A stretch of 64,000 nucleotides of DNA from Metridium senile (taxonomy: Eukaryota; Cnidaria; Anthozoa; Actiniaria; Metridiidae), in the NCBI GenBank assembly GCA_949775045.1, contig OX459098.1, forward strand, positions 16,373,581-16,437,580. The letters are read 5' to 3'. Both the position numbers and the translations under genes were made by a program. This document shows, piece by piece, positions 16,601 to 22,600 of the stretch. How positions within the stretch are numbered: the first letter of the stretch is position 1; the number at the start of each line of letters is the position of its first letter. Below the pieces are notes generated by a model that was not told the DNA's origin, did not search any database, and was given only the letters and a program-made list of their open reading frames with translations.

Positions 16601-19600
16601 GAAGACCTTATCGATAGGTACCTCCCATTGATCTATCACTGCACCTTTACCTCTGGAGATGGAAGTATAGACGGTATGAACAAACATGGGGCGCAACTAC
16701 AGTGGAACCACGTTAATCTGGACACCGAAGCGACAGCCCAAAGTCGTATTAACGGGGTCGTATTAACGGGGTGGCCGTATTAAGCGGGTAAATTTTATAG
16801 AAAATGTATGGGCTTGCATTTCTTCGGGACCTAAAAAACTGGCCGCAATAACGGGGTGGCCGTATGAAGCGGGTGGCCGTAAGGCGGGGTTCCACTGTAT
16901 AGCAAAATGGCATTGATGTAATAATCCCGAGCGCCTTTGCGGGACTTAATTCGCCCAGGTCACATCTCGTTGTTGCATTGGCAAATCAAACATCAATCAA
17001 TAAGCTATCAGCTTACTTATCCTGATTGTCCTTCAAATAACGACGATGGCCGACTGATTGAAAACCCAACCAAATTATAATTACCGTTCAAAAACATTCT
17101 TATTTCAAAAAGTAGAGCAGAACTCACCCTACTAGAAGGCCGTCTTTGATTTGTTGTTGTCTTCGTATAAACCAGAATACCAAGACTGTGATTGCCAACA
17201 TTAATATAAACACCGCTAAAGAAATGGCAGCTATTTCAAAGGCACTTAATGATTTAGCCTCCTTAACCGGCACTGAAATAGGGAGAAAAAAACAGGAAAA
17301 TCAATAACAAATAATTGTTTAGGACATTTAAGGAAGCAAGCAAGGAAGCAAGCAAGCAATCAAGCAAGCAAGCAAGCAAGCAAGCAAGCAAGCAAGCAAG
17401 CAAGCAAGCAAGCAAGCAAGCAAGCAAGCAAGCAAGCAAGCAAGCAAGCAAGCAAGCAAGCAAACAGAGAAGAAACAAACAAAGAAACAAACAAACAAAC
17501 AAACAAACAAAAACAACCGAAAAAACAAATAAACAAAACGAACGAACAAATAAGCAAGCAAGCAAACAAACAAAACGAAAAGTAAAAAAAGACAATATGC
17601 AAACCTGCTGGGTTGGAAATCGTGATGCTTGATTTCTCTCCGATAATGATTTCAACGACAAAGACAGGAGTAACCTTGAACAAGACAAAAGCCGATGAAT
17701 TATTAGTACATGCAAAACAATGTTTAGTTTGCGCAATAGTTTATAAAAGATTACCTCTATTATCATCTGTTTGCCGTTTCCAATCACAGGAGACGAAAAA
17801 GATGTCGTCTGGAATTGATATAAAGAGAAATTAAAGAAATAATGATAACGTACTATTTATAAAACGAGCAGCAGTATCTTATCAGCTTTAAAATCCCGAG
17901 GGAGAAGCCCAAGGGATTTCATACCTTATAAAACACGTTCTGCGAGTTTTTTGAATGACTTAAAAAACTCATTAGTAACTGTATCTGCATTCATTCATCC
18001 GTCATCTTCATTCATTCATTCACACATCCATCCATGTATTCAATATATGTATAATCGTTTTCTCTTAAATCACTTTGCAATTGTTAAACTGCTTAATTGT
18101 TCCTCTCACTCTCTTTACTCTCTTTATCGACGAGTCAATACATTACTTATTAATGCATGCATTATTAGTGCATGCAATCGAATCCTTGTCACCTTCAACT
18201 AATCACAACCTTTCTAACAATGAGCTGCAAGCTTACTGTAACACTCCTTACAACGGTCTCTGTCTGATTGTTAATTGCTCTTCTCGCTCTCTTCATCGGA
18301 CAGTCAATACATTATATAATAAAACCAGTGTATGCATTCAAATCCTTGTCATCTTTTACTAAATACAACATTTCTAACAATGAACTGCAAGCTTACTGTA
18401 ACACTCCTTACAACGGTCCCTGTCTTATTGTTAATAGCTCTTCTCGCTCTCTTCATCGGACAGTCAATACATTATTTAATATAACCAGTGTGTGTATTCG
18501 AATCCTTGTCACTTTTAACTAAATACAACATTTCTAGCAATGAACTGCAAGCTTACTGTAACACTCTTTACAACGGTTCCTGTCTCATTGTTAATAGCTC
18601 TTCTCGCTCTCTTCATCGGACAGTCAATATATTACTTAATATAACCAGTGTGTGCATTCGAATCCTTGTCACTTTTAACTAAATACAACATTTCTAGCAA
18701 TGAACTGCAAGCTTACTGCAACACTCCTTACAACGGTCCCTGTCTGATTGTTAATTGCTCCTCTCGCTCTCTTCATCGGACAGTCAATATATTACTTAAT
18801 ATAACCAGTGTGTGTATTCGAATCCTTGTCACCTTTAACTAAATACAACATTTCTAGCAATGAACTGCAAGCTTACTGTAACACTCCTTACAACGGTCCC
18901 TGTCTCATTGTTAATATAGCTCTTCTCGCTCTCTTCATCGGACAGTCAATACATTATTTAATAAAACCAGTGTGTGCATTCTAATCCTTGTCACTTTTAA
19001 CTAAATACAACATTTCTAACAATGAACTGCAAGCTTACTGTAACACTCCTTACAACGGTCCCTGTCTCATTGTTAATAGCTCTTCTCGCTCTCTTCATCG
19101 GACAGTCAATACATTATTTAATAAAACCAGTGTGTGCATTCGAATCCTTGTCACTTTTAACTAAATACAACATTTCTAGCAATGAACTGCAAGCTTACTG
19201 TAACACTCCTTACAACGGTCCCTGTCTTATTGTTAATAGCTCTTCTCGCTCTCTTCATCGGACAGTCAATACATTATTTAATATAACCAGTGTGTGCATT
19301 CTAATCCTTGTCACTTTTAACTAAATACAACATTTCTAGCAATGAACTGCAAGCTTACTGTAACACTCCTTACAACGGTCCCTGTCTTATTGTTAATAGC
19401 TCTTCTCGCTCTCTTCATCGGACAGTCAATATATTACTTAATATAACCAGTGTGTGTATTCGGATCCTTGTCACTTTTAACTAAATACAACATTTCTAGC
19501 AATGAACTGCAAGCTTACTGTATAGTCATCGGACAGTCAATATATTACTTAATATAACCAGTGTGTGTATTCGAATCCTTGTCACCTTTAACTAAATACA

Positions 19601-22600
19601 ACATTTCTAGCAATGAACTGCAAGCTTACTGTAACACTCCTTACAACGGTCCCTGTCTCATTGTTAATAGCTCTTCTCGCTCTCTTCATCGGACAGTCAA
19701 TACATTATTTAATAAAACCAGTGTGTGCATTCGAATCCTTGTCACTTTTAACTAAATACAACATTTCTAGCAATGAACTGCAAGCTTACTGTAACACTCC
19801 TTACAACGGTCCCTGTCTTATTGTTAATAGCTCTTCTCGCTCTCTTCATCGGACAGTCAATACATTATTTAATATAACCAGTGTGTGCATTCTAATCCTT
19901 GTCACTTTTAACTAAATACAACATTTCTAGCAATGAACTGCAAGCTTACCGTAACACTCCTTACAACGGTCCCTGTCTCATTGTTAATAGCTCTTCTCGC
20001 TCTCTTCATCGGACAGTCAATATATTACTTAATATAACCAGTGTGTGCATTCGAATCCTTGTCACTTTTAACTAAATACAACATTTCTAGCAATGAACTG
20101 CAAGCTTACTGCAACACTCCTTACAACGGTCCTTGTCTCATTGTTAATAGCTCTTCTCGCTCTCTTCATCGGACAGTCAATATATTACTTAATAAAATCA
20201 GTGTGTGCATTCTAATCCTTGTCACTTTTAACTAAATACAACATTTCTAACAATGAACTGCAAGCTTACCGTAACACTCCTTACAATTTAACGGTCCCTG
20301 TCTCATTGTTAATAGCTCTTCTCGCTCTCTTCATCGGACAGTCAATACATTATTTAATAAAATCAGTGTGTGCATTCTAATCCTTGTCACTTTTAACTAA
20401 ATACAACATTTCTAACAATGAACTGCAAGCTTACTGTAACACTCCTTACAACGGTCCCTGTCTCATTGTTAATAGCTCTTCTCGCTCTCTTCATCGGACA
20501 GTCAATACATTATTTAATAAAACCAGTGTGTGCATTCGAATCCTTGTCACTTTTAACTAAATACAACATTTCTAGCAATGAACTGCAAGCTTACTGTAAC
20601 ACTCCTTACAACGGTCCCTGTCTTATTGTTAATAGCTCTTCTCGCTATCTTCATCGGACAGTCAATACATTATTTAATATAACCAGTGTGTGCATTCTAA
20701 TCCTTGTCACTTTTAACTAAATACAACATTTCTAGCAATGAACTGCAAGCTTACCGTAACACTCCTTACAACGGTCCCTGTCTTATTGTTAATAGCTCTT
20801 CTCGCTCTCTTCATCGGACAGTCAATATATTACTTAATATAACCAGTGTGTGCATTCGAATCCTTGTCACTTTTAACTAAATACAACATTTCTAGCAATG
20901 AACTGCAAGCTTACTGCAACACTCCTTACAACGGTCCCTGTCTCATTGTTAATAGCTCTTCTCGCTCTCTTCATCGGACAGTCAATACATTATTTAATAA
21001 AACCAGTGTGTGCATTCGAATCCTTGTCACTTTTAACTAAATACAACATTTCTAGCAATGAACTGCAAGCTTACTGTAACACTCCTTACAACGGTCCCTG
21101 TCTTATTGTTAATAGCTCTTCTCGCTCTCTTCATCGGACAGTCAATATATTACTTAATATAACCAGTGTGTGTATTCGGATCCTTGTCACTTTTAACTAA
21201 ATACAACATTTCTAGCAATGAACTGCAAGCTTACTGTTACACTCCTTACAACGGTCCCTGTCTGATTGTTAATTGCTCCTCTCGCTCTCTTCATCGGACA
21301 GTCAATATATTACTTAATATAACCAGTGTGTGTATTCGAATCCTTGTCACCTTTAACTAAATACAACATTTCTAGCAATGAACTGCAAGCTTACTGTTAC
21401 ACTCCTTACAACGGTCTCTGTCTGATTGTTAATTGCTCTTCTCGCTCTCTTCATCGAACAGTCAATATATTACTTAATAAAACCAGTGTGTGCATTCGAA
21501 TCCTTGTCACCTTTAACTAAATACAACATTTCAAGCAATGAACTGCAAGCTTACCGTAACACTCCTTACAACGGTTCCTGTCTGATTGTTAATGGCTCGT
21601 CTCGTTCTCTTCACTGTAGGTTTAGTGTCTTCAATTGCAGCAATGGTGGATTTGATGATATATGTAGATACAGTACTGTGATTAAACTGGGGTGGTTTCC
21701 ATGCTATCTTCATCGTATTTGTACCGTTAATTTTGCTGATGCCTACATATGTAAGGTTTCGAACTTCAACCAAGTTTCTTCTAGGATCTGTAACGTGAGG
21801 CATTAAAGATGTAAAAGGTTCATATTGTTCCGTAGATACAGTCAATGTCATTAACATTGTCCACCAAAAAAGACATTAACACTAAAAGAAATGTCACGTG
21901 ACACCAAATTTGATAATTCTCTCGCTTTCTGATTGGTCGAGAGTCGTGGTAATTAAGAGTACGTACCACGGTTGCTATTTTGCTCATTTTCTAATGTGGT
22001 AAAAAACAAATTCACTATAGTTTCTTATGGTATGTTATCTTATTTACCACGGTTTGCGCCATCTCATCGTCTAAATTGTTGTGGATCCAAGAGACGAAGT
22101 CAACAATTTAGACGATTCGATGACACCAACCGTGGTAAATAAGAGGACATACCACGCGAAACTATCGTAAATTTGTTAATTACACCTCATAAGTTCGCAC
22201 AAAATGCTTGATATATAATGACAGCATTATATTAAGGTAGTACCGGATACTTGGATTTCTTCAATGAATTTTTTTATAAATCCTGTCATTTATAGATCAT
22301 TGTTAGGCAAGTCAAAAAACGTGAAAAAAAATTGGGGTCACCGTATTGGTTATAGAGTTATAAGATATAGTAAAAGTAGGTTTTTGCAATAATTTGCGGT
22401 GATTTGCTCAAAAGTACCTATTCAATGCAGTCAAGAGAATGCGAACGTATTCTGCTAGGAAAAGCATAATATTATATCAAACGATAGATCTAAAGGTTAT
22501 CTAACATTTCCTGTCATAAAAATCATTGAATCATTTCCAACTATGGGTATAAGTGAGCCATAGAAGCAAAATTATCTGCAATTACGCACACTACATGTGT

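Follow-up and report, generated by a model that had tools for sequence, protein, structure and literature searches.

A satellite-sized array in a Metridium senile receptor gene, apparently derived from an exon–intron junction and carrying 21 decoy splice donors

What becomes of a gene when the end of one of its exons, together with the splice donor and the start of the following intron, is repeated in tandem through that intron? The question is raised by a receptor gene in a 64-kb window of Metridium senile contig OX459098.1, in which an exon encoding part of an FN3 domain is followed by a 160-bp satellite whose every unit carries a donor. (The window is the whole stretch of DNA analysed; positions refer to it, and features lie on the minus strand unless stated.) The explanation considered here to be probable is local duplication of the exon junction, expanded by unequal exchange, with the first donor being used and the copies forming passive intron.

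The array and its source exon

The array was delimited at 18173–21613 by Tandem Repeats Finder (TRF; two rows, 8.4 and 13.0 copies, 94–95% matches), and a scan for GTAAGCTTGCAGTTCATTG allowing ≤3 mismatches recovered 22 copies, all on the minus strand, from 21554 to 18236; the same scan of the whole window found GTAAGCTTGCAGTTCATTG nowhere else on either strand. Each unit consists of the last 59 bp of the FN3 exon followed by the gtaagc donor and ~101 bp of intron, in the sense orientation, giving 22 donors in total: one authentic and 21 copies. This confirms the structure proposed in a preliminary description of the locus (exon end, gtaagc donor and intron in about 21 sense copies), which numbered the exon 20; the map of upstream exons is incomplete here. 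The lower limit of the array (18085; ragged over ~18120–18085) was judged by eye, and its ~3470 nt (counting the intronic portion of the first unit) make up ~93% of the 3746-nt intron. The features concerned, all on the minus strand, are as follows.

21555–21787, minus: source exon (exon 20 of the preliminary description), 233 nt, FN3 piece DPRRNLVEV...; open join with the next three exons, tblastn from 7/14 homologues
21555–21613, minus: repeated exon stretch, the last 59 bp of the source exon; register alignment of copies
21549–21554, minus: authentic 5′ splice site, ACG/GTAAGC; phase 0 join to 17808–17755 gives homologue-like length and content
21531–21533, minus: TGA in frame for any transcript bypassing the authentic donor, 21 nt past that donor; translation
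18118–21453, minus: 21 further copies of the 160-bp unit (59 bp exon-like, ~101 bp intron-like), sense; TRF and scan, lower end approximate
20749–20754, minus: decoy donor that keeps the −1 G and equals the authentic one across 9 nt; copy alignment
19519–19629, minus: truncated 111-bp hybrid unit, between donors 19629 and 19518; TRF and copy alignment
18085–18140, minus: ragged far end, where the founding duplication may have taken place; two local alignments, each compared with 300 shuffles
17755–17808, minus: next exon, 54 nt, phase 0-0; open phase-consistent join, homologue comparison
17605–17674, minus: following exon, 70 nt, end of the FN3 domain; exon join, tblastn
17128–17272, minus: transmembrane exon; exon join, tblastn
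10168–16664, minus: tyrosine-kinase exons through the stop codon; Pfam PF07714 pieces, tblastn

Judged by its sequence, the minus-strand gene encodes a receptor tyrosine kinase with FN3 domains. Pieces of Pfam PF07714 (protein tyrosine kinase) were found in three frames, those located lying at ~15.1 to 11.1 kb, and tblastn with homologues extended the kinase region to 16.7–10.2 kb; a Pfam fn3 match near 28.3 kb was weak (E 0.056, under its cutoff). The joined protein model gave 14 matches with E ≤0.001 in a protein search that scored the best 7992 candidates by most shared words, including 10 from sea anemones and corals (Nematostella, Actinia, Pocillopora, Stylophora, Oculina) and 1 from the brachiopod Lingula. 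Among these scored candidates the top match had 38% identity, and a shorter Actinia protein had 61% across 31% of the query. The query for the protein search, and for BLASTP, was the version of the model without the 54-nt exon 17808–17755.

The source exon is preceded by the acceptor ..acgttacag and exits in phase 0; entry in phase 1 is assumed, the preceding exon being unjoined, and the first codon of the joined protein was completed by an assumed G from that exon. The joins 21787–21555 / 17808–17755 / 17674–17605 / 17272–17128 have phases of 0, 0 and 1 and yield a stop-free protein. Splicing of the authentic donor directly to the exon encoding VTPVF, which also keeps phase, was tried and rejected: residues present in homologues are then missing, and the 54-nt exon supplies them. 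Reading phase thus marks the first donor as the authentic one, in line with the earlier proposal that in a transcript the one true donor is followed by a series of copies.

Strength of the copied donors and the outcome of their use

Whether the copies could yield alternative forms of the receptor depends on where their use would lead. The unit of 160 bp is 3×53+1, and with the TGA lying so shortly past the true donor the exon stretches of the copies are out of the mRNA frame; they had previously been taken to be in-frame exon sequence. When all 21 decoy-extended exons were joined downstream, they ran into the one shared TGA, 7 residues on, to give an 85-residue model product; with the true donor in the same model the frame stays open. 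Since every decoy leads to the same stop, length variants of the FN3 domain through simple donor choice, as once envisaged for FN3-6, are excluded. The decoy product would break off before the final strands of the FN3 domain, leaving out the membrane helix and the kinase as well, and a decoy-spliced mRNA would be a candidate for nonsense-mediated decay (NMD). Read in the frame of the source, the exon stretch is stop-free in 19 of the 21 copies (stops in those with donors 20269 and 19518), and the copy with donor 18876 is frame-shifted yet open. Compared with the copy consensus over 19 codons, the exon has six codon differences, of which 2 change the residue and 4 are silent.

The premise that the donor is retained in the copies holds throughout only for its intronic part. 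GTAAGCTTGCAG was unbroken at 22/22 donors, but the G at −1 of the authentic donor is kept in 3/21 copies (20754, 20269, 19949) and the remaining 18/21 read ..CA/GTAAGC; positions −3 to −1, ACG in the authentic site, are thus ACA or GCA in 18 copies and ACG in 3. The lost G lies within a CpG in the sequence, so that ordinary CpG decay would be a sufficient cause of its loss. The modelled U1 duplex has −8.2 kcal/mol for ACG and −4.5 kcal/mol for ACA or GCA, which does not support donors of equal strength. Matrix scores of the decoys were 5.7 or 4.9, with three at 8.9, and those of 11 donors of the same gene ranged from 3.4 to 10.0 (these scores and the U1 values are relative only). On these models the true site outscores most decoys, yet the decoys do not fall below every used site of the gene.

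Constraint was assessed on 16/22 rows of the copy alignment, the indel-free interior (rows dropped: donors 20269, 19629, 19518, 18876 and both edge copies). Variable columns numbered 24/160 (15%), 11/60 on the exon side and 13/100 on the intron side. Of the nine donor columns, two were variable (−3 and −1). All six intronic columns were invariant, which at this level of variability has a chance probability of 0.38; the longest invariant run had a permutation p of 0.69. The donor bases are no better conserved than the remainder of the unit, and the constraint on them that the preliminary description had raised was not detected in these rows.

These data bear on a functional reading, in which the copies would be competitors for U1, delaying or diverting splicing, with array length tuning the balance of membrane receptor against truncated or decayed transcript. 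Such a role is consistent with GTAAGC being intact at every donor, with three copies equalling the true donor across 9 nt, and with the overlap between decoy scores and those of donors in use in the gene; furthermore, a similarly laid-out variable number tandem repeat (VNTR) in human ABCA7 is described as having a used donor one unit downstream and length-dependent splicing (PMC5954066). Set against this are the donor bases being conserved no more than background, the absence of the −1 G from 18/21 copies, and the single truncated product common to all copies, hence no graded protein series. We regard a functional ladder as unlikely, albeit the best placed of the alternatives. A bolder extension, for which we see only a slim prospect, would make array length a heritable dial: longer ladders would trap U1, more transcripts would stop before the membrane helix, and individuals would differ in membrane-bound versus secreted or decayed receptor, a 66-bp minisatellite of the same gene (see below) acting as a second dial. 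The lack of detectable donor constraint, together with the weakening of the copies, favours the passive reading.

Origin of the array

Under local duplication, a segment running from the 3′ part of the FN3 exon into the beginning of the next intron would have been duplicated in tandem, perhaps through AAGAGA, a short purine-rich homology common to the exon end and the intron, and unequal exchange would then have expanded the duplication to ~21 extra copies. Normal splicing would take the first donor, which would be favoured by being the earliest transcribed, by the normal size (233 nt) of the exon it closes and by the −1 G that 18/21 copies lack; the copies would be carried as passive intron, their donors intact and mostly weaker. 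Where a copy was used, the mRNA would retain at least 160 nt of intron and stop 7 residues on, leaving either an mRNA subject to NMD or an unanchored ectodomain. Such use would be rare, as is assumed here for the second-unit donor of the ABCA7 VNTR. The array has the look of a local, neutral duplication, although a minor share of transcripts may be truncated through leakage.

Unequal exchange is expected to homogenise the centre of an array and leave its edges divergent. In line with this, mean differences per 160 positions were 6.3 among the 16 interior copies, 13.1 between these and the exon copy, and 34.8, inflated by an indel, between these and the far-edge copy. A quick tree, from which copy 19518 was omitted, grouped the exon copy, on a long branch, with u01 and u02 (the next two copies) and the distant u18. 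At the far end, TATTGACTCGTCGATAAAGAGAG matches the unit junction in local alignment, with 0/300 shuffles as good; the junction of the unit there, TATTGACT..CGATAAAGAGAG, gives way to AGTAAAGAGAGTGAGAGGAACAATTAA, whose resemblance to the exon end AGTGAAGAGAACGAGACGAGCCATTAA is weak (1/300 shuffles as good).

The FN3 exon was probably the source of the satellite, as first proposed, and this view draws on moderate support from sequence similarity and on frame and domain logic. Homologues were tested at the repeated stretch in 11/14 cases (P0012–P0014, having no alignment anchor, were excluded). KRTRRAI, part of the repeated peptide, matches coral orthologues, with KKTRRA or KKKRRA in Pocillopora P0004, Stylophora P0009 and their near-twins P0003 and P0011. 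The repeated stretch aligns to KKTRRAIDFDTYLTTRS in P0004 and KKKRRAIDLNTDLTTES in P0009, and the FN3 domain beyond it reads NVTIDGIQMDEEFEFRVIPVF in P0004. Of 500 shuffles of the 21-residue peptide, the match was reached by 0 for P0003, 1 for P0004, 9 for P0011 and 22 for P0009. A basic stretch is also visible in several of the homologues without significant match (LRKRRE, RRRRAV).

Several results weigh against local duplication with passive copies. The homologues that match, four in number, form two near-twin pairs and cannot count as four independent cases; in Nematostella P0001, the best-scoring homologue, the match to the repeated peptide was not significant (216/500 shuffles equal); and for 7 of the 11 homologues tested the repeated peptide was non-significant (in P0006 the stretch is uncovered). 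In addition, the decoy scores lie within the range of the gene's used donors, so that decoy use cannot be dismissed.

Conversely, a pre-existing satellite may have been inserted beside the exon, whose end was then recruited from it. The array is large and homogeneous, P0001 does not clearly match the exon end, and such matches come only from the two near-twin pairs, all as this order of events would allow; it conflicts, however, with the matching of KRTRRAI in coral orthologues and with the position of the repeated stretch within an FN3 domain that runs on in phase. No second locus was found in the remainder of the 64 kb: BLAST of the unit against the window outside 18000–21620 gave only 14–17 bp matches, the best 17 bp at E 0.2. 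Nor did the open reading frame of the unit have a relative: for the 107-aa plus-strand frame of the array, 14 candidates among predicted proteins included none with E ≤0.001, although this is a weak test. On the same result, the array was rejected as protein-coding. Recruitment of the exon end from a satellite appears improbable, its standing falling between those of the functional ladder and the heritable dial.

Very improbable is the proposal that each copy acts as a pseudo-exon, with an acceptor as well as a donor, leading to decoy-exon intron retention or to repeated cassette exons. Every unit does have exon-like sequence ending in a donor, but in the one unit scored the best AG reached −1.0, against 1.5–10.8 for 12 acceptors of the gene on a crude matrix. 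The weakness of this AG makes inclusion of the copies as cassette exons unlikely, and the pairing of acceptor and donor around each exon that characterises decoy exons is lacking in the scored unit on that matrix. Finally, a self-cleaving-ribozyme or other RNA-type satellite abutting the exon by chance is scarcely credible: the unit length is typical of such invertebrate satellites, but no Rfam family reached its gathering score within the array and no Rfam ribozyme matched, the one match up to E 1 being a sub-threshold long non-coding RNA (ZNRD1-AS1_1, on the plus strand across the exon, with E 0.43 and 20.9 bits where the cutoff is 50).

A basic motif like that in the repeated peptide occurs in the membrane-proximal FN3 domain of 8/11 aligned homologues (P0003–P0005 and P0007–P0011; KKTRRA, KKKRRA, RRRRA and RKRRE, against KRTRRA here). 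The motif KRTRRA, at 21555–21613, resembles a furin site, and the receptor may be cleaved at it.

Comparable systems and other repeats of the gene

The preliminary description knew of no named class for an array of this kind, but donor-containing repeats precede it in human genes. The ABCA7 VNTR lies in intron 18, directly flanks exon 18 and contains its donor, with 23.7 units of 25 bp in the reference and alleles of ~12 to 427 units; the donor one unit downstream is used, out of frame, exon 19 is skipped, and both length polymorphism and an effect on splicing have been measured (PMC5954066). As in that repeat, the array starts at the authentic donor (here, where a phase-consistent exon ends at the first donor) and every unit includes the donor and its context (here, GTAAGC at 22/22). 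The ABCA7 unit, as described, is 25 bp from the GT and has no exon sequence, whereas here the unit is 160 bp, 59 bp of it exon, and the copies are mostly weakened.

The minisatellite of IFI6 has a unit of ~12 bp. Multiple splice donors in it were reportedly described by Turri et al. in 1995. Two downstream repeat units of this gene (6-16/G1P3) serve as donors, and three mRNA species result (PMC4526556). Alternative donors are thus borne by repeat units in both systems, although in contrast to the three mRNA species described for IFI6 every decoy here leads to the same stop. By analogy, the array belongs with the donor-containing VNTRs of ABCA7 and IFI6, and what is new is its unit length, exonic content and host.

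Other systems are more distant. Introns have been gained through tandem duplication over an intron–exon boundary in potato RdRp (PMC4974935) and inside coding exons in Drosophila (PMC2891723). In those cases, as here, splicing signals travel with the duplication. A new intron results there, whereas the present unit has a donor but, by the crude score, no good acceptor, and would not be expected to form one. Both acceptor and donor are present in the decoy exons of retained introns in OGT and others (PMC12017769); extra intronic splice sites could delay splicing here too, but the scored unit has no good acceptor. In a model of satellite formation, any tandem duplication giving two monomers can seed an array, which unequal crossover lengthens (PMC8822648); the present array, by contrast, is known from one intron only. 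A literature search for an earlier description or named class brought up the ABCA7 and IFI6 cases and, among the matches listed, no satellite built from a cnidarian exon–intron junction.

The locus offers a clean natural case in which a satellite-sized array has apparently arisen from a coding exon–intron junction, with unit and orientation still legible, and it brings the donor-VNTR layout of human ABCA7 and IFI6 into a cnidarian, where the unit is far longer and takes in coding sequence. The locus also amounts to a natural test of how the spliceosome chooses among near-copy donors, where the wrong choice would cost the receptor its membrane anchor and kinase.

Further repeats occur in the gene. 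A 66-bp minisatellite (28465–28743, minus strand) lies upstream of another FN3 exon of the receptor (acceptor 28410), stopping 55 bp short of it, and its units include poly-T and TTTAGGACAG acceptor-like sites; across 28800–28381, sites scoring above 1 ranged from 1.1 to 8.3, the true acceptor scoring 6.5. This minisatellite is possibly a ladder of decoy acceptors. Tandem repeats seem to favour the neighbourhood of the gene's exons: between 10000 and 50000, 9/13 lay within 125 bp of a receptor-gene exon against 2.0 expected, a comparison with a post hoc threshold and an incomplete exon list. A fairer test of repeat–exon proximity within introns, on the same incomplete exon list, gave a combined p of 0.026 for 11/13 arrays, the main satellite and the array in the 3′ untranslated region (UTR) being left out. 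The latter, a 22-bp minisatellite of 12 copies (9892–10160), begins 8 bp past the stop codon, in what is presumed to be the 3′ UTR.

A tRNA match (34843–34915, minus strand, 52.1 bits) lies within a long intron of the receptor gene. A second first exon, encoding a signal peptide and a Cys-rich segment (2532–2663, minus strand), resembles that at 49577–49741 and suggests a tandem paralogue of the receptor gene downstream.

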